Part shown: in pieces, positions 2,334 to 48,366 of the stretch
Layout: every line of letters starts with the position of its first letter
How positions within the stretch are numbered: the stretch's first letter is position 1
Source of the DNA: Oscillospiraceae bacterium
GTDB taxonomy: Bacteria > Bacillota > Clostridia > Oscillospirales > Acutalibacteraceae
NCBI GenBank assembly: GCA_910574935.1
Contig: CAJTCU010000003.1
Coordinates: 257,634-311,294 of the forward strand
Direction of reading: 5' to 3'
Length of the DNA: 53,661 nucleotides
The notes under the pieces: generated by a model
The model's input: the letters and a program-made list of their open reading frames with translations, nothing else
Databases searched by the model: none
What the model was told of the DNA's origin: nothing
Translations under genes and position numbers: made by a program

Positions 2334-2448
2334 TTAGAGTCTGTTTTAAATTCGGAGAAACGCTGGCGCCTTTCGAGACTTTTTGACGCCGAAGCTACCA
2401 TTTCTGGGCAAAACAGACCCTGTTTCCGAGTTTTCACACAGACTCTAA
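2334..2448. repeat. dispersed MITE-like repeat, copy A
   Basis: Intergenic element of 115 bp with terminal inverted repeats TTAGAGTCTGT...ACAGACTCTAA. It is nearly identical over its length to the copy at 37540-37654 (shared interior TTTTTGACGCCGAAG and CCATTTCTGGGCAAAAC). Short open frames across it are by-products of the repeat. Confidence 0.8.
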
Positions 2449-2475
2449 GGTTTCCGCTGCCGGAAATTTTTGTGT

Positions 2476-3621
2476 TTATACAAACAGCTTCGCGGCCTTT
2501 TCCATGCGCTCTGCGATCTTCACGCCAAAGGGACAGCGTTCCTCACAGCTCCGGCAGCCAATGCACTGGTCGGCGCCATGTGCCAGCCCCCGGTAGTGTT
2601 CCCGAATAGACGCGGGAACATCCTCCTGCATCAGGGCCAGGTCGTAGTATTTGTTCACCATGGCGATGTCAATCTCTGCGGGGCAGGGCTTGCAGTGGCC
2701 GCAGTATGTACACTCCCCCTGGCTAAACCGGTGCTGGGGGGCCGCCGCCAGCACACTGGCATAGTCCCGCTCTTCCGGTGTGGCGGTCTCATAGGCCACG
2801 GCTGCGTCCACCTGCTCCACGGTTTCGCAGCCGGGCAGCACCGCCGCCACGCCGGGACGGGTGAGGCAGTAATGGATGCACTGCACAGGAGTCAAGGCCG
2901 TGCCAAAGGGGGACTGCTCCGCCTGGAACAGCCTTCCCCCCGCATAGGGCTTCATCACTGTAAGCGCCACGCCCTTGCTCTCGCACAGGTTATATAGCTC
3001 TGTCCGGGCGGGGTCGATGCCGGAGAGCTCCGGGGCATATTCCTTTACAAAATAGTTGTCCAGATTGTCCGTGGGCGGCAGCAGGTCAAAAGCTGGATTC
3101 ACACTGAACAGAATGACCTCAATCCACCCGCTTTCTACGGCCTTTTTGGCCATATCCGGGTTATGGGTGCTCATGCCCACATGGCGGATCCTCCCGGTGT
3201 TTTTCAGCTCCTGGACCAGGTCATAAAACGGGCCTTTTGTCACCGCCTCCCAGTCCTCTGCCCGGTCCACGAAATGGATCATCCCCAGGTCGATATAGTC
3301 CGTCTCCATCCGGGCCAGCAGGTCCTCAAAGCCCTGCCGACACAGTTTTACGTCCCGTGTGCGGGTATACTGGCCGTCTACCCAGACAGAGCCGATATGC
3401 CCCTGGATGATCCACTTTTCCCGGCGTCCGGCAATGGCCCTGCCGATATTGGAGCGCACGTTTGGCTCGCACATCCAGCAGTCCAGCAAGTTAATCCCCC
3501 GCTCCTCTGCGTGGAGGATAACCTCCCGGCACTCTTGGGTGTTATGCCGCTCCAACCACTCGCCGCCCAGGGCGATCTCACTGACCTTTAGGCCGGTCTT
3601 GCCAAGTTCCCGATACTGCAT
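2476..3621 (-). CDS. aldo/keto reductase with C-terminal 4Fe-4S ferredoxin domain
   Basis: Cytoplasmic oxidoreductase of 381 residues. The N-terminal part is an AKR TIM barrel (MQYRELGKTGLKVSEIALGG start, YIDLGMIHFVD strand). The C-terminal part carries two cysteine clusters, CTYCGHCKPCP near residue 304 and CIGCRSCEERCP near residue 353, predicted to bind two 4Fe-4S clusters. The canonical AKR DTA-x-x-Y catalytic segment is replaced by DCWMCEPNVRSNIG, so the usual catalytic Tyr is absent there. I recall this form from other clostridial Fe-S AKRs, so it is likely a subfamily trait rather than damage. The ribosome-binding site GGAGGC lies 5 bases before the ATG. Substrate unknown. Confidence 0.88.
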   Translation of the reverse strand: MQYRELGKTGLKVSEIALGGEWLERHNTQECREVILHAEERGINLLDCWMCEPNVRSNIGRAIAGRREKWIIQGHIGSVWVDGQYTRTRDVKLCRQGFEDLLARMETDYIDLGMIHFVDRAEDWEAVTKGPFYDLVQELKNTGRIRHVGMSTHNPDMAKKAVESGWIEVILFSVNPAFDLLPPTDNLDNYFVKEYAPELSGIDPARTELYNLCESKGVALTVMKPYAGGRLFQAEQSPFGTALTPVQCIHYCLTRPGVAAVLPGCETVEQVDAAVAYETATPEERDYASVLAAAPQHRFSQGECTYCGHCKPCPAEIDIAMVNKYYDLALMQEDVPASIREHYRGLAHGADQCIGCRSCEERCPFGVKIAERMEKAAKLFV

Positions 3622-3644
3622 AAGGCGCCTCCTAAAAATAAAAT

Positions 3645-3726
3645 AGGAGCCTGTTTAAAATATGGAAAACACTGTCTTTTCTGTAAGAATAGAAGCAGCC
3701 ATTTTCTCTTCTCAAACAAGCTCTAG
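3645..3726. repeat. dispersed MITE-like repeat, copy B (short form)
   Basis: Short 82-bp version of the family. The left end AGGAGCCTGTTTAAAAT and right end CTCAAACAAGCTCTAGA form the terminal inverted repeat, and TGGAAAACACTGTCTTTTCTG matches the subterminal part of the longer copies. The interior appears deleted. Confidence 0.6.
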
Positions 3727-3872
3727 AAAATATGTTCTTATTATACCAGAGCGGCCAGGTGCTGTCAAGCAAAGACCAGGAAGTGCCCAGCGGCCACGCC
3801 TGCTCGTCTCTCCACTACCATTCTACCCGACTCCCCCCCTAAACTGTAAAAAAACTTCGTCACTTCTCCCAC

Positions 3873-3901
3873 TTGAAAAGATCTTCCTTTGGTGCTATAA
3901 T
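3873..3901 (+). promoter_or_regulatory. sigma-A promoter for guaB
   Basis: TTGAAA (3873-3878), a 17-bp spacer and TATAAT (3896-3901) form a near-consensus housekeeping promoter about 90 bp before the guaB start. I see no purine riboswitch between it and the gene. Confidence 0.8.
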
Positions 3902-3966
3902 TTTTTGTTAATAACATCCCCGCTCCACTCGCGGAAAAGGAACGGAAAACAAGGAAAGAGGTTTAA

Positions 3967-5469
<1,503 letters not shown>

Positions 5470-5486
5470 AATTTCTCGAAAACCCC

Positions 5487-5515
5487 TTGACATTCTCTTT
5501 TTCATCCATTATAAT
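5487..5515 (+). promoter_or_regulatory. perfect-consensus sigma-A promoter for the tRNA pair
   Basis: TTGACA (5487-5492), exactly 17 bp, then TATAAT (5510-5515). A perfect 8-bp-stem hairpin (GCGTCCCG at 5521-5528, CGGGACGC at 5536-5543) follows, at or just after the expected transcription start and before the first tRNA. Confidence 0.88.
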
Positions 5516-5549
5516 AATGAGCGTCCCGTTCATGGCGGGACGCATATGT

Positions 5550-5626
5550 GGCGGTATAGCTCAGCTGGCTAGAGCATTCGGTTCATACCCGAAGTGTCGA
5601 TGGTTCAAGTCCATTTACCGCTACCA
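5550..5626 (+). tRNA. tRNA-Met (CAT)
   Basis: Cloverleaf of 77 nt including encoded CCA. Acceptor GGCGGTA pairs with TACCGCT (one G-U), the D arm is GCTCAGCTGGCTAGAGC, the anticodon arm TTCGG-TTCATAC-CCGAA gives CAT, and the T loop is TTCAAGT. It lacks the three G-C pairs of an initiator anticodon stem, so elongator Met is most likely; an Ile2 (lysidine) tRNA also has a CAT anticodon and is not fully excluded. Confidence 0.93.
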
Positions 5627-5629
5627 AAT

Positions 5630-5704
5630 GGCCCGGTGGTCAAGCGGCTAAGACACCGCCCTTTCACGGCGGTAACACGAGTTCGATTCTCGTCCGGGTC
5701 ACCA
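5630..5704 (+). tRNA. tRNA-Glu (TTC)
   Basis: Cloverleaf of 75 nt with encoded CCA. Acceptor GGCCCGG pairs with CCGGGTC, the anticodon arm CCGCC-CTTTCAC-GGCGG gives TTC, and the T arm is ACGAG-TTCGATT-CTCGT. It is only 3 nt downstream of tRNA-Met, so the two are co-transcribed. Confidence 0.95.
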
Positions 5705-5755
5705 AGTTCGGCGGGTTTCAGTCAAGAGGCCCCTGGGAATATATTTGAGGGAAGG

Positions 5756-5790
5756 GCGCTGGGCAGTTTGCTGCGGCGCTTTTCTTTTTA
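5756..5790 (+). terminator. possible terminator after the tRNA pair
   Basis: Imperfect hairpin GCGC-tgg-GCAG-tttg-CTGC-g-GCGC followed by TTTTCTTTTT. The stem has an asymmetric internal loop, so strength is uncertain. The next gene begins at 5809. Confidence 0.4.
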
Positions 5791-5808
5791 CAAAAAGGAT
5801 GATAAAAC

Positions 5809-6315
5809 ATGTTGAAAAAACTGATTATGTTCATGGGTGCCGCTGCCCTGGCCCTATCCCTTTCTGCCTGCGGCGGCGGCCCCACCCAGTCTGTGGCAGT
5901 CCTGGAGAGCGCTTCTTCCGGCATTACCCAAGAGGCAGTGGAGGACACAGGTTATGAGGATAACCTGGAGGGCCTGTGTGGTTATCTCTCTGCCAACAAG
6001 GCCATTGCTGGGGACCCGGTGGAGATGTCCTATAAGGAGATCGGCGCTATAGCTGGCTGCCGGTACAGCTTCCGCTTTGGAGGCAGCACCATTCAGGCGG
6101 AATTTTATGAGTTCGACCTGGACAACCTGGACCAGAAGGGAAAAGAATGTGTGGACAGCGTACAGACCAAGGGCTTTTTTACCATTTTGGGAAATGAGGT
6201 TCACGCACAGCTTAATGGAAAATACCTGATGATCTATGTAGACAAAAGTCGCGAAGATGCTAATATAGCGCATACTGCCCAGGTGGAGGAGTTGTTTCTA
6301 GGTTTTAAGCAGTAA
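5809..6315 (+). CDS. small lipoprotein of unknown function
   Basis: The 168-residue product starts with a lipoprotein signal peptide (MLKKLIMFMGAAALALSLSA) and a lipobox LSAC with the lipidated cysteine at residue 21, so it is predicted to be anchored on the outer face of the membrane. The mature part is a small acidic domain (about 50-165) with no motif I recognise. The ribosome-binding site AAAGGATG lies before the ATG. The VOC-fold gene starts 16 bp downstream on the same strand, suggesting co-transcription. Confidence 0.8.
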   Translation: MLKKLIMFMGAAALALSLSACGGGPTQSVAVLESASSGITQEAVEDTGYEDNLEGLCGYLSANKAIAGDPVEMSYKEIGAIAGCRYSFRFGGSTIQAEFYEFDLDNLDQKGKECVDSVQTKGFFTILGNEVHAQLNGKYLMIYVDKSREDANIAHTAQVEELFLGFKQ

Positions 6316-6331
6316 AACGGAGGTTGTATTT

Positions 6332-6739
6332 ATGAGTCTTGGCGTTGGCCTTTATGTAAAAAACAGCCGGGAAGCGGTGAAGCTCTATCAGGCCGCTTTT
6401 GGAGCGGAACTTGGGTATCATGTACTTAACGAGGACGGCGGATATTTTCATTCCGAACTTATGGTAGACGGTGACCCATTGGTCTCGGTTTGTGAGGCAG
6501 GAGACGCTATTGAGCCTAGAGGAAACCCTGTAGAGCTGGGGGTGTTTTTCCAGACTCGGGAAGAGGTTGACCGAGCTTTTTCGCTGCTGCGTCAGGGCGC
6601 GCATATAATCATAGAGCCCAAGCAGCTGCCCTGGAGCCCATGGGCCGCCTGTCTGGTGGACCGCTTTGGAGTGCGCTGGTTTCTCTCACTGCCTAATCAT
6701 CGTCCGCCGGAAGATTTTAAGCCCGGAGATGAACAATAA
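6332..6739 (+). CDS. VOC (glyoxalase/PhnB-like) family protein
   Basis: Small cytoplasmic protein of 135 residues with the vicinal-oxygen-chelate beta-alpha-beta-beta-beta pattern: N-terminal GVGLYVKNSREAVKLYQAAFGAELGY, a central FHSELMVDGDPLVSV strand pair and C-terminal PWSPWAACLVDRFGVRWFLSL, typical of PhnB/3-demethylubiquinone-type VOC proteins in Firmicutes. The substrate is unknown; such proteins include resistance and metal-binding members. It follows the lipoprotein gene closely and ends before a clear terminator. Confidence 0.85.
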   Translation: MSLGVGLYVKNSREAVKLYQAAFGAELGYHVLNEDGGYFHSELMVDGDPLVSVCEAGDAIEPRGNPVELGVFFQTREEVDRAFSLLRQGAHIIIEPKQLPWSPWAACLVDRFGVRWFLSLPNHRPPEDFKPGDEQ

Positions 6740-6767
6740 AGTATAACGTATGTATACCATATTTAAG

Positions 6768-6803
6768 GCCATCCGAGGTTTTCTCTTGGATGGCTTTTTT
6801 CTT
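6768..6803 (+). terminator. Rho-independent terminator after the VOC gene
   Basis: The hairpin GCCATCCgAGG / CTTGGATGGC with a short T-rich loop is followed directly by TTTTTTCTTTT. It lies 30 bp after the VOC stop codon. Confidence 0.88.
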
Positions 6804-7273
6804 TTGCGGCTTCCTCACTCTTCCAGACTCTATGGACAATTCTCTACAAAAGGTAATAAACCAGCATGTAGCCTGTCCGCTATGGACAGAAATGCCAGCA
6901 GTTTTCTAAGCATATATCATGATGTATTTTTTAGAATTCCTTTTTAATCATTCTGTGCCGCAAAGTGCGTTTTCCTGGAAGGGGGTTTTTTCTTCTTCTG
7001 GTATGCGTTGTCGTTAACCCGGTTCAAACAGAGATTTCTTGGCTCTTTTGAACCGGAGCTTTATTGCCCAGCTTAAAAATCCCTATCTACCGATTTTTAA
7101 CTGGGTTTACGCTACTGGGCAAAATCCGGAGCTTGGACATAATCGGGAATTAAACTTTTACTTCTCTCCCTGCTATTCCCACCGCAATTCTCTTCTATGC
7201 CAGGACCTCACTCTATCTCCCTGTTAGGATACATATCTAAGTACAGCCAGCTGCACTTTTCTTCAATCCTATC
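6804..7273. other. gene-free region with nested inverted repeats
   Basis: No credible gene is seen. The stretch 7019-7128 is rich in structure. CCGGTTCAAA (7019-7028) pairs with TTTGAACCGG (7047-7056). CCCAGcTTAAAAATC pairs with GATTTTTAAcTGGG around 7068-7107. TTGCCCAG near 7065 also matches CTGGGCAA near 7119, competing with the inner hairpin. This could be a structured RNA or the remains of a mobile hairpin element. Confidence 0.5.
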
Positions 7274-7303
7274 AAAAAAGAAAGCTGACTTTTAGCCAGC
7301 TTT
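7274..7303 (-). terminator. Rho-independent terminator of the serS-membrane protein unit
   Basis: Read on the minus strand, GAAAGCTGGC-taaaa-GTCAGCTTTC is followed by TTTTTTGAT. It lies about 50 bp after the stop of the small membrane protein. Confidence 0.8.
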
Positions 7304-7353
7304 CCTCTCTTTGATCTTGTAATCTTATTTCCTTTTTTATTCTACAAAAGAGA

Positions 7354-7704
7354 TCAACCTTTTTTCAAAATTACCTGCCGGACCAAGATTGTGGAAACCA
7401 TCCCCACAATGCCTAGCAGAAAGTTGATTCCAGCATAAATTAGGAAGTCCATTTCAAGGGCAAAAAAGATCCATTCTGCGCACAGTGCCAGCAGGGGACC
7501 ACTCAAAAGCAGCCACCACCGGGCCCTTATATCCAGCCCGGCAAAAATCCCCATTCCCAAAGAGCAGGTGGGGTGAATGACCAGAAGAATTAATATGTCC
7601 ACCGCAAAGTATATATCCAGACTACCAAAGATCAGGTTTAGAGCAGGCAGTCCGGCTAGGACTACTACTTGAACCACTAATGCGATTAAGCCCGACTTTT
7701 TCAT
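7354..7704 (-). CDS. small four-helix membrane protein, unknown function
   Basis: The 116-residue product is almost entirely hydrophobic, with about four predicted transmembrane helices (LIALVVQVVVLAGLPALNLIF, then IYFAVDILILLVI, WWLLLSGPLLALCAEWIFF and IYAGINFLLGIVGMVSTILV). The start at 7704 is one base after the serS stop (TAA-A-ATG), with GGGAG in the end of serS as ribosome-binding site, so it is translationally coupled to serS. Earlier in-frame ATG codons lie inside serS and are unlikely. I do not recognise the family. Confidence 0.7.
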   Translation of the reverse strand: MKKSGLIALVVQVVVLAGLPALNLIFGSLDIYFAVDILILLVIHPTCSLGMGIFAGLDIRARWWLLLSGPLLALCAEWIFFALEMDFLIYAGINFLLGIVGMVSTILVRQVILKKG

Positions 7705-7705
7705 T

Positions 7706-9001
7706 TTACTCTCCCATAGGGGTCCCGATGGCGGCCTTTCCCCCCATATACATGCGCAGTGGTTCTGGAATACGAATGCTTCCATCAGCCTGCAAATTAT
7801 TCTCTAAGAAAGCAATGAGCATCCTGGGCGGGGCTACCACAGTGTTGTTTAAGGTGTGGGGGAAGTAATTCTCCTCCTTGTTCTTCACCCGAATGCCCAG
7901 CCGCCTGGCTTGGGCATCTCCCATATTTGAGCAACTGCACACCTCAAAATATTTCTTCTGTCTGGGAGACCAGGCCTCAATATCTACACTCTTTACCTTT
8001 AGATCTGCCAAGTCTCCCGAACAGCACTCTAGGGTGCGTACCGGAATATCAAGGGAGCGGAAGAACTCCACCGAGTAGCTCCACATCTTATGGTACCACT
8101 CCATGCTGTCCTGGGGCTTACAGACCACAATCATCTCCTGCTTCTCAAACTGATGAATACGATAAACGCCCCTCTCCTCAATGCCATGGGCGCCCACCTC
8201 CTTGCGGAAGCAGGGGGAATAACTGGTAAGGGTTTGAGGTAACTGGTCTTCGGTGAGCAACTCGCCGGCAAACTTACCAATCATCGAGTGCTCGCTGGTG
8301 CCAATCAGGTATAGGTCCTCCCCTTCAATCTTATACATCATGTTTTCCATCTCGGCGAAGCTCATGACCCCAGTGACCACATCGCTGCGGATCATAAAGG
8401 GCGGAATGCAGTAGGTAAAGCCCTTCTTATCTACCATAAAGTCCCGGGCGTAGGCCAAGATACCCTCGTGCAGCCGGGCAATGTCCCCCATCAGATAATA
8501 GAAACCGTTTCCGCTCGTGCGCCGGGCACTGTCCAAATCAATGCCGTTTAGGCGCTCCATAATCTCCGTATGATAGGGTACCTCAAACTCCGGTACAACA
8601 GGATCGCCAAAGCGCTCCAGCTCAACATTTTCACTGTCGTCCCTGCCTACGGGCACACTGCTGTCAATGATGTTTGGAATCACCATCATGCGCTTTTTGA
8701 TCTCGGCGGTCATCTCCGCCTCTTTCTGCTCCATTTCAGCCAGTTCGCCGGCAATTTCGGCCACCTTCTTCTTGGTCTGCTCTGCCTCTTCCTTTTTGCC
8801 CTGGCCCATGAGCTTTCCAATTTCCTTGCTGATGGTATTGCGCTGGCGGCGAAGCTCGTCGCCCCGAGCCTTACTGGCCCGGAACTTTGCGTCTAGATCC
8901 AGAACTTCATCCACCAGGGGCAGCTTTTCTTCTTGAAATTTCTTCTTGATATTTTCCTTTACCAGGTCCGGGTTAGTACGGACCAGTCGAATATCTAGCA
9001 T
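7706..9001 (-). CDS. serS: seryl-tRNA synthetase
   Basis: Class II aminoacyl-tRNA synthetase that charges tRNA-Ser. The 431-residue product has the N-terminal long antiparallel coiled-coil tRNA-binding arm (about residues 30-100), then the catalytic core with the TSEHSMIG loop, motif 2 (FRKEVGAHG) and motif 3 (MLIAFLENNLQADGSIRIPEPLRMYMGG region at the end). The length is normal. It lies 222 bp downstream of spo0J with a leader containing some hairpins but no convincing T-box. A small membrane protein follows 1 bp after its stop. Confidence 0.97.
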   Translation of the reverse strand: MLDIRLVRTNPDLVKENIKKKFQEEKLPLVDEVLDLDAKFRASKARGDELRRQRNTISKEIGKLMGQGKKEEAEQTKKKVAEIAGELAEMEQKEAEMTAEIKKRMMVIPNIIDSSVPVGRDDSENVELERFGDPVVPEFEVPYHTEIMERLNGIDLDSARRTSGNGFYYLMGDIARLHEGILAYARDFMVDKKGFTYCIPPFMIRSDVVTGVMSFAEMENMMYKIEGEDLYLIGTSEHSMIGKFAGELLTEDQLPQTLTSYSPCFRKEVGAHGIEERGVYRIHQFEKQEMIVVCKPQDSMEWYHKMWSYSVEFFRSLDIPVRTLECCSGDLADLKVKSVDIEAWSPRQKKYFEVCSCSNMGDAQARRLGIRVKNKEENYFPHTLNNTVVAPPRMLIAFLENNLQADGSIRIPEPLRMYMGGKAAIGTPMGE

Positions 9002-9223
9002 AATGATTCCTCCAATTTTTAAGCACTAATCTTTCAAAGAGACCAACCTAAAGTAAAAGCTATCCTTCCATTTTTCAAGTAATAGAAACCAGGGATAGAC
9101 TCTCTAGCTGCCAGAGGATCTCTTGTACTTTGCGCATAACAAGGGGCTGCCTGCCCAAATCCTGTCAGGAACTAGCATCCCTGCACCCACGCATCATGGC
9201 GCGGCGTTCCATCTTTTTTCCTA

Positions 9224-10084
9224 CTATTCCTTTAGTTTTAGTTCACTAAGCAGGTTTTGCAGGTCCTCTTCCCCATAAAATTCAATCTGCAAAACACCCT
9301 TTTTCTTTGAGCCCGCCACCTTTACCTTTCGGCCCAGGTAATCGCTCACTGCCAACTGGGCCTCTGCGTAAAACTGGCTGGGCTGGCTAGATCGGGGTAT
9401 CGCCTGGGGCTCCTTTGTCTCCGCGCTTTTCTTGGCTAATGCCTCCAGCTCCCGCACAGAAGCGCCCTCTTTCGCTCTCTGGGCTGCCGCCAGCATATCC
9501 TCCTGGTTCTTAAAGCTTAGCAGGGTTCTGGCATGTCCGGCGGAGAGTTCTCCTCTTTCTACCATCTGCTGAATCTCCTCCGGCAGGTTCAACAGCCGCA
9601 GCGCGTTGGCCACGGCGGGCCGGGATTTTCCCACTGCTTCTGCCGCCTTCTCCTGGGTAAAGCCCTGGGCCTCTATCAGCTGTTGGTACCCCCTGGCCTC
9701 TTCCAGGGGGCTTAAGTCCTCCCGCTGTAGGTTCTCGATGAGAGCGAAGAGCATCTCTTCCCCATCGCTCATTTCCCGCACCACTGCGGGCACCTCGGAA
9801 AGGCCAGCCATGCGTGCCGCCCGCCACCGGCGTTCCCCAGCCACAATACGGTATCCGCCACTGACCATGGGCCGCAGCAAAATAGGTTGAAGCACCCCGT
9901 GCTGCGCTATGGACTCTGCCAATTCTGAAAGAGCGGCCGGGTCAAATTCTTTTCTGGGCTGGTCCCGGTTTGGCTCGATTTCACTGATGCGCACTGCCAC
10001 CGTTCCCTCGCCGTTTTCCGCCGCGTTTTCCGCGAAGATGGCGTCTAGCCCCTTGCCCAGTCCACGTTTTTTCACGCTCATCAT
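9224..10084 (-). CDS. parB: chromosome-partitioning protein ParB/Spo0J
   Basis: CTP-dependent DNA clamp that loads at parS and recruits SMC near the origin. The 286-residue product has the conserved N-terminal tail KKRGLGKGLDAIFAE, the catalytic box (NRDQPRKEFD, GYRIVAGERRWRAARMAGL), the parS-binding helix-turn-helix (about 135-160, TQEKAAEAVGKSRPAVANALRLLNLP) and a C-terminal dimerisation domain. It is the second gene after soj, with about 247 bp between them. A paralogue (noc) lies upstream. The ATG has AAAGGATTTT before it; the next codon is also ATG. Confidence 0.96.
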   Translation of the reverse strand: MMSVKKRGLGKGLDAIFAENAAENGEGTVAVRISEIEPNRDQPRKEFDPAALSELAESIAQHGVLQPILLRPMVSGGYRIVAGERRWRAARMAGLSEVPAVVREMSDGEEMLFALIENLQREDLSPLEEARGYQQLIEAQGFTQEKAAEAVGKSRPAVANALRLLNLPEEIQQMVERGELSAGHARTLLSFKNQEDMLAAAQRAKEGASVRELEALAKKSAETKEPQAIPRSSQPSQFYAEAQLAVSDYLGRKVKVAGSKKKGVLQIEFYGEEDLQNLLSELKLKE

Positions 10085-10331
10085 AAAATCCTTTCTAAAA
10101 AATGTTCATGCAGGCCTGATGTAAATATTGTGCAGTAGAGGGACCCCACCGCAACTTTTGAATGAGGCACTGCCGGTTACTTTGGCGGCCTCAAGCAATT
10201 TGGGTCATGTAACATAGATCAAGCTGGCAGCGGAAAATAGTAAAACTTTTACTGTCTCATTACCGAGACTTTCATGCCACCTTTAAACATTTCCCTTTAC
10301 CATCCTAATTCTTTCCTGCGCTCGCTCTCTA

Positions 10332-11317: not shown

Positions 11318-11343
11318 CTGTGGGAAATGAATAAGGGAATGGG

Positions 11344-20261: not shown

Positions 20262-20486
20262 TTAATATTTCTTCTTTTCCGGTACCGGATCATACCCGCC
20301 CCGACCCCAAGGGTTGCAGCGCAATATTCTCCACACAGTCAGAGCCATACCCTTTAAAGCGCCAAAACGCTGGATTGCTTCTAACCCATACTGGGAGCAG
20401 GTGGGAATAAACTTACAAGAAGGCTGGGTATGCGGCGAAATGTGATTTCTATAAAATTTAATCAGCCATATCAAAATGAACTTCAT
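20262..20486 (-). CDS. yidD: membrane protein insertion efficiency factor YidD
   Basis: Small membrane-associated protein of 74 residues with the family signature: amphipathic N terminus ([22 protein letters not shown]), [21 protein letters not shown] and [17 protein letters not shown]. It overlaps the end of rnpA by four bases (ATGA), indicating translational coupling, and lies upstream of yidC in the canonical order. Confidence 0.96.
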
Positions 20487-20833
20487 CTGCTCTTTGCTTT
20501 TTCCGCCTCATTCCACAAACCAGCGGCTTTCAGCTGCCGCCCCAAATGCGCCTGCACTTCTGTGCTTTTTACAAAAGGCGTACGACCCCTGGCCACAAAA
20601 ACTAGGTCATAGCCAGTGTGAACCTCTGGGGCCAGCGGTCGAAAAGCCTCACGAATAACACGCCGGGCACGGTTGCGCTGCACAGCGTTACCAATCTTCT
20701 TACTGGTGGTAATGCCTACCCGCAGGACCCGCTGCCGGTTTTTCAGCACATAAAGCACCACCACTGGAGAAACATAGCTCTTTCCCCGGGAATAAACCCG
20801 GCGAAAATCATTGTTCCTGCAAAGCGAAATCAT
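20483..20833 (-). CDS. rnpA: ribonuclease P protein component
   Basis: Basic protein subunit of RNase P, which matures tRNA 5' ends. The product of about 116 residues carries [17 protein letters not shown] at the N terminus and the RNR-type signature [20 protein letters not shown], with a conserved DLVFVARG strand. The start is uncertain: ATG at 20833 fits the family N terminus, while TTG at 20842 has GAGGAAGG about 10 bases upstream; B. subtilis rnpA also uses TTG. The frame stays open to 20974, but that part overlaps a repeat element and is unlikely to be coding. Confidence 0.94.
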
Positions 20834-20899
20834 CTTGTCCAAAAACAGCCTGCCTTCCTCTTTCTCGGGGCCCTCTTTATAACAAATAAAGGCCACAAC

Positions 20900-21063
20900 A
20901 AGAGCCTGTTTCAAAAACCAGAAAACGCTGCCTTTTTTTTCAACAAAAACGGGATATTCGCGTGAAGCATCCAAGAAATACGGAAGTATTTCTCAAAGGT
21001 TGTTCTGAAATACCACGCACTTGGAAAAGATCCAGCATTTCCTCGGTTTTAAAACAGCCTCCC
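20900..21063. repeat. dispersed MITE-like repeat, copy C
   Basis: Terminal inverted repeats AGAGCCTGTTTCAAAAACC...GGTTTTAAAACAGCCTCCC, with the subterminal AGAAAACGCTG/CAGCATTTCCT matched as well. The interior holds a perfect hairpin AGAAATAC-ggaa-GTATTTCT near 20970. It lies just upstream of rnpA, between rpmH and rnpA. Confidence 0.65.
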
Positions 21064-22665: not shown

Positions 22666-22830
22666 TAGAGCTGGTTTGAAACATCCAAAACGCCGTCTTT
22701 TTGCCCAAAAGCGGCCATCTTCCGCATCAAAAATCCTCGTCAACCGGCCGGTTGACTTGCGGTTTTTCCTGGGATCTGACCACTTCTGACCCAAAATTCC
22801 TCATCCCCGCCATGTTCCAACAAGCCCTAA
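22666..22830. repeat. dispersed MITE-like repeat, copy D
   Basis: The left end TAGAGCTGGTTTGAAACATC and right end TGTTCCAACAAGCCCTAA form the terminal inverted repeat. The interior matches copy G (shared CGCCGTCTTTTT-GCCCA, ATCCT-GTCAACCG, CATGTTCCAACAAGCCCTAA). At its centre, 22739-22756, is a perfect 18-bp palindrome GTCAACCGGCCGGTTGAC. It lies about 110 bp upstream of the dnaA promoter. Confidence 0.75.
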
Positions 22831-27732: not shown

Positions 27733-27916
27733 TTAGAGCCTGTTCCCATAAAGTAGGGCGTTTGGATTTTCGCGGGGGTTTTGAGGCAGGTTCTAGGAGA
27801 AAAGACCCGGAAAACCCGGCTGTTTATGGTATTACAATTCTGGCAAGCTTTTTTGATGTGAAAACTGCCAAAATCCACAAAATATCAGACACGATTCCTT
27901 GTGTGAATAGGCTCTA
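27733..27916. repeat. MITE-like element with related termini, copy H
   Basis: 184 bp bounded by TTAGAGCCTGTTCCCA and TGTGTGAATAGGCTCTA, an inverted pair. The ends match the family's TAGAGCCTGTT type, but the interior differs from the other copies, so it may be a separate subfamily. It lies between remB and the next gene. Confidence 0.6.
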
Positions 27917-37411: not shown

Positions 37412-37543
37412 TTAGGGCTTGTTTGAAAATAGAGGGAATGGGGTTTTCTACTCAGAAGCGGTGGATTTCAAGGAGTTTCTACGGGGAAAGCGGCCTCTTC
37501 TGGGAAAAAAGACGGCGTTTCCGATCTTTCAAACCAGCCCTAG
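37412..37543. repeat. dispersed MITE-like repeat, copy E1
   Basis: TTAGGGCTTGTTTGAAAA at the left and TTTCAAACCAGCCCTA at the right. It aligns with the reverse complement of copy F (shared ATAGAGGGAATG-GGT, TTTCAAGGAG and GGCCTCTTCTGGG), but lacks about 25 bp of the interior. It abuts E2. Confidence 0.8.
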
Positions 37544-37654
37544 AGTCCGTTTTAAAATCGGAGAAATGCCGGCGCCTTTCCAGGGTTTTTGACGCCGAAG
37601 CCACCATTTCTGGGCAAAACTGACCCTGTTTCGGAGTTTTCAAACAGACTCTAG
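37540..37654. repeat. dispersed MITE-like repeat, copy E2
   Basis: CTAGAGTCCGTTTTAAAATC at the left and GAGTTTTCAAACAGACTCTAG at the right; near-identical to copy A at 2334-2448 over 115 bp. E1 and E2 share the CCTAGAG junction, so one may have inserted at the other's end. Confidence 0.85.
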
Positions 37655-39887: not shown

Positions 39888-40052
39888 ATAAAGAAGCCGC
39901 CCTAAATGGACGGCTTCCCAAATGATGAGGGGAAAAAGGCGGAATGGGAGTATTTGGAGCCGCCGCGGACCTTTGACAAAAGTAGTTTTTGGAATAAGCA
40001 GCTTTGTGCTATTTATTTTGTAGAAAGTCATAAAACAGGAGGAATCACAGAA

Positions 40053-41015: not shown

Positions 41016-41017
41016 AG

Positions 41018-41725
41018 ATGAAGGCAATTTTTAAGCGGGAGCTGCGCTCGTATTTCAGCTCGCCGATCGGCTATGTCTGCGTGGCCGCCCTGGCCGCCCT
41101 GTACGGCTTTTTCTATTTCTTTGTGATGGCCAGGGGCTATTCCAGCTATATTCCCAGCGTGGTGTACGGCACCATGTTCAGCTTTTCCATGCTGATTATT
41201 CCCGTTATCACCATGAAGAGCATGACCGACGACCAGAAGAACAAAACCGACCAAATTTTGCTGACAGCCCCGGTAGGGGTCACCTCCATTGTGGTGGGAA
41301 AGTTCCTGGCCTGCTACCTGGTGTATATTATCGCCTCTACCATCGGCCTGCTGCCCGCCATTGCCATGAGCTTCTTCTCCACTCCGCCCTGGGGCGAGAT
41401 CCTCGGAAACTATATTGGCACTCTGCTGTACGGTGGGGCTATGGTCTCTATTGGCGTGTTTATCTCCAGCCTGACGATCAGCCAGATTATCGCGGCCATC
41501 GGCACTTTTGCGGTCTCGGTGTTCCTAATGTATATCGACTCCCTGGCCTCTTCCATTAACAACGCCGTGGTGGCCACGTTTGTCAGCTGGATTTCCTTTA
41601 GTAACCGCTACAGCACTTTTACCCAGGGGCTGTTCAGCGTACCCAGCACCATATTCTTTATTAGCGTGATGGCTATCTTTGTGTTCCTGACGGCACGCAG
41701 GCTGGAGAGCCGCCGTTGGTCGTAA
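41018..41725 (+). CDS. ABC transporter permease (GldF-like)
   Basis: Membrane subunit of 235 residues with six predicted helices (for example YVCVAALAALYGFFYFFVMA, MLIIPVITMKSMTDDQKNKT and IIAAIGTFAVSVFLMYI). It opens with FKRELRSYFSSPIGYV, the hallmark of ABC-2 permeases of the GldF/YhaP group. It partners the ATPase encoded 2 bp upstream and the Gld-like protein downstream. Confidence 0.92.
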   Translation: MKAIFKRELRSYFSSPIGYVCVAALAALYGFFYFFVMARGYSSYIPSVVYGTMFSFSMLIIPVITMKSMTDDQKNKTDQILLTAPVGVTSIVVGKFLACYLVYIIASTIGLLPAIAMSFFSTPPWGEILGNYIGTLLYGGAMVSIGVFISSLTISQIIAAIGTFAVSVFLMYIDSLASSINNAVVATFVSWISFSNRYSTFTQGLFSVPSTIFFISVMAIFVFLTARRLESRRWS

Positions 41726-41914
41726 AAGTCCTAATCTTGTAAAAGAACGTCAGCAAGAGCGCGGTCCAGGGTCCACTCTTGGCCCCTGGCAGAGTTTGGG
41801 GCAAAGCCCCAAAGGTCTTGCGGCAGCCGGCAATTTATGCCAGCGGAGGCAGATCCGTATTATGATAAAAATCCCTTTAACTTTGCCCCACAGGAAAGGA
41901 AGGTAGCAATTCTA
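41726..41914. other. spacer within the Gld-like operon with REP-like stem
   Basis: It contains a GC-rich imperfect hairpin, GGTCCAGGGTC...GGCCCCTGG and TTTGGGGC-aaa-GCCCCAAA (41794-41813). No T-run follows, so transcription probably continues. Confidence 0.4.
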
Positions 41915-43519
41915 ATGGACGAAAACAACAAGGAAAATTTGGAAATAGAAGAGCAAGAGGCGGCCCAGCCCCCAGAGACCGTTGAGGAAAATACGCCGGA
42001 GAAAGCGCCCGTTTCCACAAAGCCCGGTTCTAAGGGCAAGAAGCCCTCTTTCTTCAGCGGCAGCAAGTTTAAGCGCGGAGGCATGGCTACGGCTTTGACC
42101 GTGGTATTCATTGCCATTGTGGTGGTAGTTAACGTACTGGTCTCTGTTTTGGCGGACCGATTTCCCTCAATGAACGTGGACCTGACCGCCAAAAAGATGA
42201 ATACCCTTTCTGAGCAGGCCCTGGAAGTGGCTGGCAAGGTGGAGAACAAAACCGAGATCTTCCTCATTGGCGAAGAGTCCGCTTACCGGAACGACGCCAT
42301 TTTCTCCAACTACGGCATCAAGTACAGCCAGGTGGCTAACTTGGCCGAGCGCCTGGAAGAGGCAAACGGTAACATCCACACTGAATTTTTGGACCCAGAC
42401 ACGAACCCTACCTTTGCCAATGAATATCCTAACGAGAGTTTGACCAGCGGCAAGGTGCTGGTGCGCACAGAGAAGCGCTATAAGCTTTTGACCCTAAACG
42501 ACATGTTTTCCCGGTCCCAGGACCAGACTACAGGCGAGACAAATATGTTTTCTAATGCGGACAGCGCCCTGGCCGCAGCCATTGAGGTGGTGAATATGGA
42601 CAAGGTGCCGGTGCTTACCGTTGCTACCGGCCATGAGGAGATTCTTACCAGCAGCATTATGTCCTACTTCCTGGAGCTGATGGAGAAGCAAAACTTTGAA
42701 GTGCGGGAGATTAACATTCTTACCGAGGAAATTCCTGAGGAAACTCAGCTGCTGATGATTCCCACCCCAAAAAATGACTACACCGACGCGGAGCTGGACA
42801 AGCTGCGGGCCTACTTGGGAAACAGCGAGCGGCTGGAAGATCTGGCGTTGATTGTCACTTGTTTCCCAGGCCAGGGCAGTCTGCCTAAGCTGGAGGGATT
42901 TTTAGAGGAGTGGGGTGTTTCTGCCAACACGGACGCCGTGGTGGCGGAAACCGACGCGGACCGGTACTTCTCCAGTCCCATTAATGTGCGGGTGAATCCT
43001 TCGGAAGAGGTTTTGGAAGGAAATTACGGTTGGGTGGTCTCTCCCCAAAGCGTGCCCTTGGAGGTGCTGTTCTCCGGCAACGGAGAGATTACTGCTAAGG
43101 CCCTGTGGACCACCGCGGACAGTGCCTATACCGCTACTGCCGATGATACGGAAGATACAGACCCAGATACTTCCGAGCAGGTGGTGGCAACCATGTCTAA
43201 TACCTTTATTCAAAAGGATAATAAGATCTATAACCGGGATGTATTTGTGTTTGGTTCTTCCCATGTGTTTGCCGATTCCTTCATAGCCGCCCCCGCCTTT
43301 GGCAATGGAAACTATGTAATGGACCTGATGAAGCAGGCCACCGGCACGGACGGAAGCAATGTTTCTGTATATACCGAGCGGGTGCAGACCAATGTGCGGG
43401 ACGTAACGGCTTCTCAGAACACCGTTGTGGTGCTGGGGCTGTTTGTGTTCACCATTGCCCTGCCAGTGCTGATTTTGGCGGCGGGCCTTGTGATCTTCTT
43501 GAAGAGGAGGCACCTGTAA
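41915..43519 (+). CDS. GldG-like ABC auxiliary protein
   Basis: The 534-residue product has a long acidic cytosolic N terminus, one transmembrane helix (about 65-87, ALTVVFIAIVVVVNVLVSVLA), the GldG-type extracytoplasmic domain (LTAKKMNTLSEQALEVAGKV, VPVLTVATGHEEIL, LLMIPTPKNDYTDAELDKLR) and a C-terminal helix (VVLGLFVFTIALPVLILAAG). GldG proteins form a complex with GldA and GldF; in Flavobacteria this is tied to gliding, but in Clostridia the transported substrate is unknown. The start at 41915 has GGAAGG upstream. Confidence 0.88.
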   Translation: MDENNKENLEIEEQEAAQPPETVEENTPEKAPVSTKPGSKGKKPSFFSGSKFKRGGMATALTVVFIAIVVVVNVLVSVLADRFPSMNVDLTAKKMNTLSEQALEVAGKVENKTEIFLIGEESAYRNDAIFSNYGIKYSQVANLAERLEEANGNIHTEFLDPDTNPTFANEYPNESLTSGKVLVRTEKRYKLLTLNDMFSRSQDQTTGETNMFSNADSALAAAIEVVNMDKVPVLTVATGHEEILTSSIMSYFLELMEKQNFEVREINILTEEIPEETQLLMIPTPKNDYTDAELDKLRAYLGNSERLEDLALIVTCFPGQGSLPKLEGFLEEWGVSANTDAVVAETDADRYFSSPINVRVNPSEEVLEGNYGWVVSPQSVPLEVLFSGNGEITAKALWTTADSAYTATADDTEDTDPDTSEQVVATMSNTFIQKDNKIYNRDVFVFGSSHVFADSFIAAPAFGNGNYVMDLMKQATGTDGSNVSVYTERVQTNVRDVTASQNTVVVLGLFVFTIALPVLILAAGLVIFLKRRHL

Positions 43520-43523
43520 GCCT

Positions 43524-44972
43524 ATGAAAAAAACCGGAAAATATATTGTTATTATGCTGGTGGTTCTGGCCCTTTTGGGGGGCGCGGTGGCTGTGCTAGT
43601 GAATTTGCCCACAGAGGAGGGCAATGAGGAGAGCTCTGCTCCCTCTTCCAGCCAGGCCGGCGAGACCCTGCTGGAGGTGGAAGAAGCCAAGGTGGACTCT
43701 ATTGAAATAGAGAACGCCAAGGGCGGCTTTGTTGTGGTGCCCACTGACTCCGACAGCGAAGGGAATGTGAATTTTACGATCCAGAACTGTGAAAAGTATA
43801 ATATGAACCTGGGGCAGATTACTGCCAACGCCCGCAGTGTCTTAAAGATCACCGCTTCAAAAAACCTGGGCAGCCGGGATGATTTGGAGGCCTTTGGGCT
43901 GAAAGGAGAGGACGCCGCCCAGGTGACCATTCACTGTGGCTCTGAGAGCCACAGCATGACCCTGGGCGCCAGTACGCCGGAATCGGGCGGAAGGTATGTG
44001 CTAATAGACGGCCAGGTTTATGTGGTTTCCAACGTGCCCGCCAACTTTTTTGGCAGCCCCATGGCCTACTTTAGCACAGAGGTTTATACCATAGAAAACC
44101 GCAAGGAAGAGACCATAGACGAAGAGGGAAACAAGACGGAGACCGACGGAATAGACATTCTCTATGAGATCACCTTCAGCGGCAAGCAGTATCCAGACCC
44201 CATTCATATTGAGTATTCCAGCAAGTCTACCAGTGGATATCTGATTACAGAGCCCATTGTGGCAGAGTCGGCCAATAACCGCTTTAACGAGCTGCTGACT
44301 ACCCTAAAAAGCCTGACCGCTACCAGCGTTAGCAGCATAGGGGACTCGGACGAGGACCTGGAGGCCCATGGCCTGCTGGAGCCAGAGGCCGAGATTTCCT
44401 TTAACATGAACAATAGCCAGCACAGGCTGGCGGTGAGCGCCAAAGACAGCGAGGGATACCGGTATTTAATCAGCGATACCAGCGACGTAATCTACGTGGT
44501 GGAAAATAGTTTGGTCTCTGGCTGGGCCGAGGCCAACCTGCTGGGCCTGCGTATGAGCTATGTTTGGATTCCCAATATTAAAGAAGTACAGCAGCTGACC
44601 CTGACCGTGGAAAAAGACCAGGTGTACCAGTATGACGTGACTCGCCAGGTAAACGAGGAGAAGTCTACCGAACAGCTGACCAGCTATGACTTAACCATTG
44701 TAAATGCGGGCGGCGAAAATGTGGATTATTCCGAGGCCTACCAGCCCTTCTTCCAGAAGCTGATTAGCCTGGCGGTGTTCTCTCAAGATAAGGTAGAGGT
44801 AAGCGGCGCTCCAGCCCTAGAGGTGGTCTATAAGTACTTTGACGGGGGCAGCGATACCCTAGAGCTGTACCGGATGGAGGACCAGAACCGCTATGCCGCT
44901 TTTTTGAACGGCACGTTTAACGGGCAGATTCGGGGCACAGAAGTAAGCGGAGTGCTGGAGATCATTCCATAA
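43524..44972 (+). CDS. DUF4340 domain membrane-anchored protein
   Basis: The 482-residue product has one N-terminal membrane anchor (YIVIMLVVLALLGGAVAVLV), a Ser/Glu-rich linker and two DUF4340-like beta-rich repeats (LEAFGLKGEDAAQVTIHCGS and DLEAHGLLEPEAEISFNMN). It lies outside the membrane and is the usual fourth gene after the GldA-F-G type set in Firmicutes, so it probably acts with them on an envelope process. The start codon is 4 bp after the stop of the GldG-like gene. Confidence 0.87.
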   Translation: MKKTGKYIVIMLVVLALLGGAVAVLVNLPTEEGNEESSAPSSSQAGETLLEVEEAKVDSIEIENAKGGFVVVPTDSDSEGNVNFTIQNCEKYNMNLGQITANARSVLKITASKNLGSRDDLEAFGLKGEDAAQVTIHCGSESHSMTLGASTPESGGRYVLIDGQVYVVSNVPANFFGSPMAYFSTEVYTIENRKEETIDEEGNKTETDGIDILYEITFSGKQYPDPIHIEYSSKSTSGYLITEPIVAESANNRFNELLTTLKSLTATSVSSIGDSDEDLEAHGLLEPEAEISFNMNNSQHRLAVSAKDSEGYRYLISDTSDVIYVVENSLVSGWAEANLLGLRMSYVWIPNIKEVQQLTLTVEKDQVYQYDVTRQVNEEKSTEQLTSYDLTIVNAGGENVDYSEAYQPFFQKLISLAVFSQDKVEVSGAPALEVVYKYFDGGSDTLELYRMEDQNRYAAFLNGTFNGQIRGTEVSGVLEIIP

Positions 44973-45102
44973 ATGCGGAGCCAAAAAGGCTTTGTGCACA
45001 ACAATAGAAAGAAATTCTTTGCATAACCAGGACCGGACCTTGCGCTTGCGAAAAAAAGACAGCAGGTCTAAGGCCGGTATCGCAAAAAGGAGATGATGCC
45101 CC

Positions 45103-46125
45103 ATGAAGAAGTTCCTTTGCCTGCTTTTGGTGCTAGGGTTGGCCATAGGTGGACTGGCGGGGTGTAGTAAAAAGGAAGAAGAGAACCAGGGCCCCTCCTC
45201 AGTGGAGAATTCCTCTTCCCCAGTGGAGCAAGAGAAGAGAGTGCTTCAAATTGGCCTAGTGCAATATATGGAGTATGCTCCCCTGGACCAGGCCCGAGAG
45301 GCCTTTATCAGCCGATTGGACGAATGGGGATACGACGATGGCAAGCTGGCGGTTGATTATCAGAATGCCGGGGGCGACCGGGGAAAGGTCACGGAGATTT
45401 GCGAAAAATTTATAAAGAATAAAGTAGATGTAATTGTTGCCATTTCTCCGCCCGCGGCTAAAGGCGCGGTGGAGGCTGCCAAAAAAGACGGCACAAAAGT
45501 AGTGTTCTTGGGAGTTGGCGACCCGAAAACCGAGCTTGGTATTGCCAACCCGGAGCAACCGGAAGGTAGTGTGACAGGTGTCGCGGACGCAGCCCAGGCC
45601 CGGGCTGCTGTGGACTTTGCCCTACAGGTAAATCCAGAACTGAAAACCATGGGGCTGCTCTTTGACCCCAGTGGAGCTTTGGGTACCATCACGGTGGAGG
45701 AGCTGCGAAAGGTTTGCGGAGAGAAGTCCATCACAGTAGTAGAGGGCCAGGTCAGTGGTATTGGAGAGGTGAAGCAGCGGATGACAGAACTCTGCTCTCA
45801 AGCAGACGCTGTGTTTAGCCCCATGGACAATACTGTGGCGGCGGTGGCCCAAGAAGCAGCCCAGGTTGCCCGGGATGCTGGAAAGCCTTGGTATGTCTCT
45901 TCTGAGGACCTTGTACAGCAGGGTGCTTTGGCTGGGGTAAGTGTAGACTATACCGAGGCGGGTAATCAGGCTGCTGATATGGCAGTGCAGATGATCGCTG
46001 GGCGTGCAGTGGAGCAGCTGCCGGTATGGACTCCTACCGGGCGGATTAGTGTGAACCAAGAGACTATGTCCATCCTGGCGGCACAGGTGCCGGAGGAAGT
46101 GCTGGAGCAGGCTAGTTATTATTAA
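45103..46125 (+). CDS. ABC substrate-binding lipoprotein (ABC_sub_bind / TrpX type)
   Basis: Predicted extracellular ligand-binding lipoprotein of 340 residues. The lipobox is LAGC (Cys21); the spacer is Ser/Glu-rich; the two-lobed PF04392 fold follows (IGLVQYMEYAPLDQAREAF, NKVDVIVAISPPAAKGAVEA, TMGLLFDPSGALGTITVEELRK, VFSPMDNTVAAVAQEA, GALAGVSVDYTEAGNQAADM). Members bind aromatic amino acids or similar ligands, but no permease or ATPase of this type is adjacent. The ribosome-binding site is AAAGGAGATG. Confidence 0.9.
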   Translation: MKKFLCLLLVLGLAIGGLAGCSKKEEENQGPSSVENSSSPVEQEKRVLQIGLVQYMEYAPLDQAREAFISRLDEWGYDDGKLAVDYQNAGGDRGKVTEICEKFIKNKVDVIVAISPPAAKGAVEAAKKDGTKVVFLGVGDPKTELGIANPEQPEGSVTGVADAAQARAAVDFALQVNPELKTMGLLFDPSGALGTITVEELRKVCGEKSITVVEGQVSGIGEVKQRMTELCSQADAVFSPMDNTVAAVAQEAAQVARDAGKPWYVSSEDLVQQGALAGVSVDYTEAGNQAADMAVQMIAGRAVEQLPVWTPTGRISVNQETMSILAAQVPEEVLEQASYY

Positions 46126-46138
46126 GGATAGCAAAAGG

Positions 46139-46182
46139 GAAAGCAGCGTTTGTGCCAAAAGGTACAGCGCTGCTTTTTACTT
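46139..46182 (+). terminator. Rho-independent terminator
   Basis: AAAGCAGCG and CGCTGCTTT enclose a 19-base loop and are followed by TTACTTTC. It ends the substrate-binding protein gene. Confidence 0.8.
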
Positions 46183-46209
46183 TCTTTCATGAAAATGGTT
46201 TTAAAATAT

Positions 46210-46366
46210 GGGCTCGTTTGAAAAACCGGAAACACCGTCTTATTGCCCAGAAGAGGCCGGCCGGTTTCTGCGTCGAAAATGGCAGAACGGCTTACGGTTT
46301 TCTCCTTGAAAGTCACCCCTTCTGGGCAAAAAGACCTCATTCCCTCTATTTTCAAGCAAGCCCTAA
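46210..46366. repeat. dispersed MITE-like repeat, copy F
   Basis: GGGCTCGTTTGAAAAACCGG at the left and TATTTTCAAGCAAGCCCTAA at the right. It is the longest form of this subtype (157 bp) and matches copy E1 in reverse and copy G in the same orientation (shared ACCGTCTTATTGCCCAGAAG-type and GGTTTTCTCCTTG segments). It lies 200 bp from the end of the recombinase gene. Confidence 0.82.
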
Positions 46367-46566
46367 ATAATTTCGAAAGTTTCAATTTAAAAAATGCTCA
46401 TGGGAAATTGTTTGAAAATGGATGGCGTTTTCACTTTTTCAAAAGAACCTTAGATAGATGATATTTCTTTTAGGCAAATCATGATTGATAGTAGCCAGTC
46501 TGATCGGATCGAAACAGACATGCAATGTGGCCATAATAATGCTATGATGTATTTGCCAAGTGATTC

Positions 46567-47985
46567 TCATGTATCGCTCTCTCGCTTTGCTTCACTTTTA
46601 GCCCGGGTGATAATTTCTTCTATTCTGCCGCTGATACGCTCTTCTGCCTGCCGCATTAGGTGCCCGTATATATTTGTGGTGGTAGCCACGCTGGAATGTC
46701 CCAGCCGGTGGCTAACACTGATGCTGTCCACTCCGCTAAATAAAAGCAGACTGGTCATGGTGTGCCGGAAAGCATGAGGATTTAGATGGGGTAAACCATG
46801 ACGCTTTTCAAAGCGGGTCAGCCAGTTTCCCAATTGAGAGGGGTTCATAGGTCCGCCATGTTCGCCTGTAAAAATGTACGGAGATTCCTTCCAACGCGCA
46901 CCCTGCGAGGTGATTTCTTCCAGTTGCCACAACCGGTATTCCTGGAGCAGTTCCATGGTTTCCTCAGGCAGACGCAGGGTACGTACAGAGTCTCGGGTTT
47001 TTGGGGGGCCCTCATACAGTCCCCGGTCGGCAGCGTAGTGCATAGCACAGTCAATGCGGATAGTCCGCCGGACCCAATCCACTTTCTCCCATTTCAGTCC
47101 TAAAAGCTCCCCGCGGCGACAGCCAGAGGCCAACAGCAGATTGACGGCGGCCTGCCATTTGATAGGCTCTGATTCCAGGGCGTTTAGAATGGCCCCCACC
47201 TGATCCTCTTGAAAATAGTTGGGGTCTATGCCTTCGCCCCGCTTGGGAGGTACGGCCCGCCTTGCTGGATTATAGGGAATTAACATCTCTTTTTCTGCCT
47301 GGCCCAGCACAGCGGAGACCAGCAGATGACAGTTCATCACAGTGCGGGAGCTTAGGGTTTTTTCCTTGCGCACTGGGGTAAATAGATCGCTGACTGGCAT
47401 ATCTAAACTTTCGGCAATACGTTGGGCGGTGGCAGGCTTTACAGGATGTCCAGCCCGAAGCCGGGCCAAACTGATCCGCCCGCCTCCTTTTACCGGTAGG
47501 TCGCCAAAAATTCCCTGCTTTTCAAGTGTTTTCCACAGAATGGGTTTATCTTGTTCCATTTCGTTATCATTTCTGGCCTGGGGAGAGGAAAGGGATTGGT
47601 ACAGCAGATTAAGATGCTGGGGTTTAATGTCACAGAGTTTCATGGGGCCTAAAATGGGCATAACCCGCTGGAGGCTTTGTCGGTAGTGTATTTCGGTCAA
47701 GTGTTTCATGCCCATCGTAATTTTACAGGAGAGCACGTATTCCGCATACTCGGCAAAGGTTTGAGTCCCGTTTGAGATACCCTGGCGGCATCGGCGTTCA
47801 AAAAGGACGGCCTGCTTTTCCGCTTCTTTACGGGCGCGTCTTTCGCCCCACCCATCTGGGACCCGCCAGGTACAGGTGTAGGGGGTTAGCTGTTTGCCGG
47901 TTTTTGGGTCTCGCCCCCTGTATACTCTGATACAGTAGGAAATGACCCGTCCTTCCTTGTTGGTTCTTGCCTGGATATTAGCCAT
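46567..47985 (-). CDS. tyrosine recombinase/phage-type integrase with inserted HTH-like segment
   Basis: Site-specific recombinase of 472 residues. It has an AP2-like arm-binding start (IQARTNKEGRVISYCIRVYR), a SAM-like core-binding domain (about 75-235) and a C-terminal catalytic domain with Arg290 (SGCRRGELLGLKW), Lys329 (PPKTRDSVRTL), His404-x-x-Arg407 (HAFRH), His430 (HRLGH) and nucleophile Tyr440 (NIYGH). Within the core-binding domain, about residues 164-206 read like an XRE-type HTH (ISLARLRAGH, ATAQRIAESLDMPVSDLF). No other phage or ICE gene is nearby, so it is an orphan. Confidence 0.93.
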   Translation of the reverse strand: MANIQARTNKEGRVISYCIRVYRGRDPKTGKQLTPYTCTWRVPDGWGERRARKEAEKQAVLFERRCRQGISNGTQTFAEYAEYVLSCKITMGMKHLTEIHYRQSLQRVMPILGPMKLCDIKPQHLNLLYQSLSSPQARNDNEMEQDKPILWKTLEKQGIFGDLPVKGGGRISLARLRAGHPVKPATAQRIAESLDMPVSDLFTPVRKEKTLSSRTVMNCHLLVSAVLGQAEKEMLIPYNPARRAVPPKRGEGIDPNYFQEDQVGAILNALESEPIKWQAAVNLLLASGCRRGELLGLKWEKVDWVRRTIRIDCAMHYAADRGLYEGPPKTRDSVRTLRLPEETMELLQEYRLWQLEEITSQGARWKESPYIFTGEHGGPMNPSQLGNWLTRFEKRHGLPHLNPHAFRHTMTSLLLFSGVDSISVSHRLGHSSVATTTNIYGHLMRQAEERISGRIEEIITRAKSEAKRESDT

Positions 47986-48219
47986 ATTGCTTTACACTCC
48001 TTTTTTAGCGGGGCATGGCATCACCCAGACAGTGTGGGGTGATGCCATGTCCATTTCTTTTCATATCTTGTTAAGAAATGAACAGACTTCGCCCGCCTGT
48101 GCAAATTTTTACCGTTGTCCAGACTTTGCGGGACTACGGAACTATTATATAGGATAACAGGATGTGCACATCATTGTCAAAACTAGAGAGAAATAATTGC
48201 CGCATAATCCCAAGAAAAG
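47986..48219. other. upstream region of the recombinase with inverted repeats
   Basis: No gene. CATGGCATCACCC (48014-48026) and GGGTGATGCCATG (48037-48049) are perfect 13-bp arms, 28 bp before the recombinase start; a 12-bp palindrome GATGTGCACATC lies at 48161-48172. Both are candidates for recombinase-binding or operator sites. Confidence 0.5.
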
Positions 48220-48366
48220 AAGTACGCCGTCTTTTTTGCCCAGAAGAGGCCCCTTTCCGTGCAAAAAATCCTTGTCAACCGCCCGGTTAACTTGCGGTGT
48301 TCTCCTTGCAATGGACCTTCCCTGGTCAGAAATTTGTCTTTTTCTCCATGTTCCAACAAGCCCTAA
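48220..48366. repeat. dispersed MITE-like repeat, copy G
   Basis: The left end is degenerate; the right end is TGTTCCAACAAGCCCTAA as in copy D. It shares long interior stretches with copy D (ACGCCGTCTTTTTTGCCCA, GTCAACCG-CCGGTT, ACTTGCGGT) and parts with copy F. It lies between the recombinase and the S-layer gene. Confidence 0.75.

Follow-up and report, generated by a model that had tools for sequence, protein, structure and literature searches.

Among described systems, insertion sequences (ISs) of the IS427 group come closest to the elements reported here. The Paracoccus members are 832-865 bp long and are flanked by 2-bp repeats in all but one case, and the group is described as having two overlapping open reading frames (ORFs) (PMC3281130); ISPsp10, an IS427-group element in Pseudomonas, is recorded to duplicate TA on insertion (PMC4133298). 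Bacterial miniature inverted-repeat transposable elements (MITEs), as characterized in one account, are short, gene-less, many-copy sequences with terminal repeats and IS-like ends (PMC10969869). Our window is a stretch of 53,661 nucleotides (contig C3:257634-311294) from the 4.17-Mb genome of an Acutalibacter-like gut Clostridia bacterium, hereafter the host genome, in which an earlier note had described nine MITE-like hairpin elements scattered around the replication origin. Eight of the nine share all of the general MITE features listed above; from the MITEs that the same account describes they seem to differ in end sequence, host group and frequent tandems with a TA in common (PMC10969869). 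We are confident that these eight are MITEs of IS5/IS427-like ISs with the same terminal repeats, moved by the transposase of those ISs. Inverted-repeat ends, a preference for YTAR target sites (Y, pyrimidine; R, purine), TA duplication, presence/absence polymorphism, sets of near-identical copies and, at other loci, transposase genes framed by matching ends were all observed directly, and they bear out the MITE-like character proposed earlier.

The abundance of the shared ends rules out both chance resemblance and absence of the family elsewhere in the genome. With at most one mismatch, the end TAGRGCYTGTTTGAAA occurs 108 times forward and 103 times in reverse in the host genome (211 in total), against 1 + 0 for the same sequence read backward as a control. 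Profile hidden Markov models (HMMs) for two subfamilies, t1 and t2, were built from genome copies that were found with three window elements. They match the family 128 times, and 89 of the matches are full length (73 t2, 16 t1). These copies come from the loci found with the three window elements, from extra stretches and from contig C3, and because only the best 40 candidates per DNA query were scored in the genome search, total copy number is known through the end counts alone. Most full copies are 113-187 bp long, with ends of 16-20 bases. The t1 copies are mostly 113 bp, with some forms of about 165 bp that hold an extra stretch; t2 copies span 130-187 bp and are mostly 164-167 or 186-187 bp. 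Single linkage at 97% identity yields t2 groups of 11, 7, 6 and 4 copies, which point to recent amplification, and there are 12 identical pairs among the 89 full copies.

The elements are inserted into Y-TA-R, and the TA is duplicated. Of the 89 full copies, 10 have no clear TA ends and a further 17 adjoin the end of another element; of the 62 isolated copies that remain, 54 lie in YTAR (TTAG 18, CTAA 17, TTAA 11, CTAG 8); YTAR makes up 16% of the TA sites on the contig. The duplication is seen where a site filled in the relative G014 is empty in the host genome: a t2 copy in G014 reads CCT[TA...TA]A where the host genome has CCTTAA, so that two bases, TA, were duplicated. This is the one clean pair obtained from the filled/empty comparison that had been proposed for finding target-site duplications. 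At a second G014 site, occupied by a t2-t1 tandem, the host genome is again empty and the left T has been lost. Twenty G014 loci were examined and five had flank matches in host sequence: L288 and L278 are empty in the host genome, L270 is a shared site, L272 is empty with diverged flanks, and L269 is treated below. A sixth locus, L276, matched mainly within the element. The genome of Acutalibacter sp. ABMPRH_146_1 (G040), the closest named relative by DnaA (DnaA 99%, DNA about 94% identity), yields the same contig places as G014. At the fifth G014 locus (L269, contig C96), the flanks of a t2 copy match two host contigs, C8 and C5, which would reflect either a rearrangement or a chimeric contig in a metagenome-assembled genome.

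Full-size ISs with the same ends connect the family to a transposase. A search for DDE_Tnp_1 covered five genomes, and protein searches covered 29 genomes of the genus. Elements of 823-1,025 bp, from the genus and its family, have t1-like or exact t2 ends that surround transposases of the NCBIfam IS5_3 type. One of them, 852 bp long, comes from G304, a member of the family outside this genus, and is bounded on both sides by TAGGGCTTGTTTGAAAAAT, the t2 end; its second ORF is open, its first is interrupted by a stop codon, and about 2 kb from it lies a 166-bp MITE that has these ends too. G022 contains an 851-bp element whose ends are t2-like and whose two overlapping ORFs are both open, four identical 823-bp copies with t1-like ends (TAGAGTCTGTTCTC / TAGATTCTGTTCTC), all in YTAR (flanks Y-TA...TA-R), and a decayed 722-bp element with t1-like ends. 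An 862-bp element in G017 has a broken reading frame, an 839-bp IS5-type element in G010 is decayed, and a 1,025-bp element on host contig C11 has TAGAGTCTGTTTTAAA at both ends and a decayed IS5 transposase inside. Further remnants in the host genome, marked by t2-type ends or by IS sequence, were found on C5, C21 and C11 and next to a t1 copy on C1. The autonomous transposon with matching ends, whose search the earlier note had advised, was thus found for the t2 type in the relatives G304 and G022, whereas the host genome yielded decayed or contig-edge copies only; t1-type ISs are represented by decayed copies in the host genome, G010 and G022. Pieces of L262, L320 and L300 match NF033580 (IS5_3, IS5 family, NCBIfam) above its cut-off and fragments L240, L257 and L246 match below it, and the partner transposases also match PF01609 and PF13340. 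A 351-bp IS5-type remnant in G009 (L296:1467-1817) has one t2-type and one t1-type end, and its size is intermediate between IS and MITE. One of the four 823-bp copies (L300:1474-2296) sits between two parts that resemble a single histidine kinase gene.

By size, duplication and ORF layout, as the description of the group gives them, the partner ISs are very probably IS427-like. Their lengths of 823-862 bp (save the decayed copies of 1,025, 839 and 722 bp), their 2-bp TA duplication, read from the flanks of the IS copies, their two ORFs and their DDE transposase all agree with the group. They depart from it, so far as that description extends, in the frame change between the ORFs, which is +1/-2 in L262 and L320 and -1 in L300, and the MITEs, unlike the group, are gene-less. 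The earlier note knew of no named family with these ends. The MITE family itself does seem to be unnamed; its ends are those of IS5 (IS427-like) ISs of the same genus and family, and its kind is therefore known.

Duplication of TA and a preference for YTAR would also fit MITEs of an IS630/Tc1-mariner-type transposon, and the host genome does contain PF13358 genes (6 matches). However, the host copies of IS630 end in TATTACTCC-type sequence, unlike the MITE ends, whereas the genes found between MITE-type ends are of IS5 type. IS630 was rejected as the parent on account of this difference in ends, and an origin of this kind is extremely unlikely. The host IS630-type elements (L171-L174) have their TATTACTCC ends beside TA, and two copies are 99.9% identical. 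That the elements are short, palindromic, many-copy and intergenic is also reminiscent of repetitive extragenic palindromic (REP) or bacterial interspersed mosaic element (BIME) sequences, for which a RAYT (Y1) transposase would be the means of spread. REP units, however, are much shorter and lack a target duplication, whereas the present elements have long terminal repeats with TA duplication and DDE transposases occur between matching ends; we give an origin of this type practically no credence, although no search aimed at a RAYT gene was made.

If the elements are MITEs of IS5/IS427-like ISs, a full-size IS with the same terminal repeats would supply the IS5-family (IS427-like) transposase, which would bind ends of the type TA-GRGYYTGTTTKAAAA and move the element. 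Joining would take place at the TA in the middle of a YTAR site, and this TA would become duplicated. MITEs, carrying the ends and a short core only, would be moved in trans. We infer both this movement in trans and the MITE origin from the sequences compared here. Several observations count against the interpretation. The host genome yielded no intact IS bearing TAGRGC ends, its copies with such ends being decayed or at a contig edge only, and the family may or may not still move there; the open DDE genes at C2:143367 (455 aa) and C1:638341 (161 aa) lack such ends. The likeness between MITE and IS extends over about 17-21 terminal bases, and the cores do not match. The ORFs of L262 and L320 are joined only through the +1 (or -2) frame change, which, together with the stop codon in the G304 element, leaves transposase activity unproven. 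The 10 full copies, out of 89, in which TA ends are not clear also belong here, as do the empty sites for window element D and for L272, whose flanks have diverged and show no TA duplication.

It is possible that an IS5-type element has escaped the host assembly. Host contigs C2 and C27 (L246, L248) have their first bases inside near-identical IS5-type copies ending in TAGAATCTGTTTAGCA, and this element may be an IS that is still active in several copies, which fell into gaps of the assembly. The idea that the t2 core is a relic of a transposase gene was rejected, the t2 consensus matching full-size IS copies at the ends only. At host locus L263 a transposase remnant runs directly into t2 from model position 49; given the match at the ends only, we take this as a junction and not as proof of origin.

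The distribution of the TAGRGCYTGTTTGAAA end is patchy. Exact matches were present in 10 of the 40 genomes in the set of relatives, all 10 being among the 25 same-genus genomes (the host included) and none among the 15 from other families; in an even draw of 300 family genomes it was present in 12, from 8 of 135 genera. Among the titles listed from open-licence literature, none dealt with MITEs of this kind in Acutalibacter. The present results say what this very abundant repeat of Acutalibacter-like gut bacteria is, what target it uses and which transposase is likely to move it. Family ends also lie at contig edges in the fragmented relatives G024 and G190, which suggests that the repeats may break assemblies.

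Within the window, inverted-repeat elements lie at, or a few bases from, all nine listed positions, far above chance, and the HMMs recover eight of them, which confirms the family with eight of its nine proposed members. The two proposed subtypes also hold, as t1 (A, E2) and t2 (D, E1, F, G). Element A (2335..2447, plus strand; HMM t1, 1.1e-36) is a t1 MITE of 113 bp with TA at both ends, in a TTAA target. Its partner E2 (37541..37653, plus strand; HMM t1, 2.7e-39) is likewise a t1 MITE of 113 bp; the two had been called near identical, and they share 90% over 113 bp. E2 stands in tandem with E1 (37413..37542, minus strand; HMM t2, 8.4e-25), a t2 MITE of 130 bp, with one TA in common (37541-37542). 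Element D (22666..22829, plus strand; HMM t2, 2.3e-48) is a t2 MITE of 164 bp in a CTAA target upstream of dnaA. F (46208..46365, plus strand; HMM t2, 1.2e-32) is a t2 MITE of about 158 bp that has lost its left TA, and G (48217..48365, plus strand; HMM t2, 6.2e-34), of about 149 bp, matches t2 model positions 18-166; its start, listed before at about 48220, is thus model position 18, the left end having been lost. Damaged ends also mark B (3645..3725, no strand assigned), a short, old, t2-like element with a damaged left end and a weak match (HMM t2, 6.7e-6, model 3-58) that has BLAST matches to other family copies, and C (20900..21063, no strand assigned; HMM, 6.8e-8), a diverged copy with both TA ends lost, whose right arm is nearest to t1.

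As the earlier note stated, none of the elements encodes a transposase. All are too short to hold one, and no ORF that matches Pfam covers any of them. The elements at 3645, 20900, 27733 and 48217 are overlapped by ORFs of 104-163 aa; five overlapping ORFs tested against Pfam matched no family, except that ORF 20483-20974 contains an RNase P protein domain (residues 47-150). This domain stops before element C, which therefore sits between rpmH (L34) and rnpA. The hairpin character holds in part: in a shuffle test covering four elements, single-strand folding is stronger than in shuffles for A (z -2.95), E1 (z -2.52) and E2 (z -2.30) and no stronger for G (z -0.28).

Eight copies near dnaA/gyrBA might suggest structured RNAs or origin-linked regulatory hairpins under selection, and element C, with 163 of 164 bases the same in the relative L095 against about 94% in its surroundings, speaks for this. 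Yet copies are spread genome-wide; D is absent from L095, where about ten flanking bases differ as well; and an Rfam scan of the window at gathering thresholds gave two tRNAs and no other RNA family. Nor is the density beside the origin, earlier described as high, significantly raised: the 311-kb contig C3 has 26 elements, 8 in the 53.7-kb window and 18 in the other 257.6 kb (binomial P(>=8)=0.066), and origin-specific enrichment was rejected on this count. Selection for such a role is very unlikely as an explanation of the family, and under the MITE interpretation no origin function is needed to account for the hairpins next to dnaA and in the rpmH-rnpA interval. Single copies such as C may have acquired a secondary use; C, which sits within an 11-base inverted repeat (ATAAAGGCCAC / GTGGCCTTTAT), is possibly kept as an intercistronic hairpin.

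The three tandem pairs among the 26 elements on contig C3 prove little alone. In the host genome t1 has at least 34 matches (best 40 of 46 candidates), which merge to 28 places; excluding C1:298574, which lacks clear ends, 12 of the 27 scored places abut the end of another element with one TA in common. Among control sites on C3, 49 of 449 noncoding YTAR sites and 102 of all 2,065 YTAR sites abut an end, and the binomial P for t1 is 2.7e-5 at a base rate of 12% and 0.0035 at 20%. The noncoding control is approximate, since the crude ORF caller, used for these controls alone, made several elements look coding, and since the elements' own ends were counted. One of the 12 abutting places (C1:708578) adjoins an IS remnant rather than a MITE, and C3:201990 was scored as non-abutting, yet HMM matches put it beside a t2 element. 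Pair orientations and t2 lengths vary, so a single copied composite unit does not explain the tandems. Element ends (CCC-TA-R / Y-TA-GRG) recreate the YTAR target, and the TA-sharing pairs suggest a self-targeting habit. That the transposase preferentially targets the ends of elements of its own family is a tentative idea, somewhat less probable than its opposite; if true, hairpin arrays between genes would grow by self-nucleation. IS30-type elements insert beside their own ends, and a preference for own-family ends, seen here by counts only, would resemble theirs, with a different transposase family and a different duplication.

The ninth listed element (27734..27916, no strand assigned) falls outside the family. 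It is 183 bp long, has inverted repeats, ends in TAGAGCCTRTTC and occupies a TTAG site; it has no match from the t1 or t2 HMM, and a search of the host genome finds itself alone. It has one 69% relative, in G020, and a strong predicted hairpin. The two tRNA genes found by Rfam are consecutive, at window positions 5550-5701.

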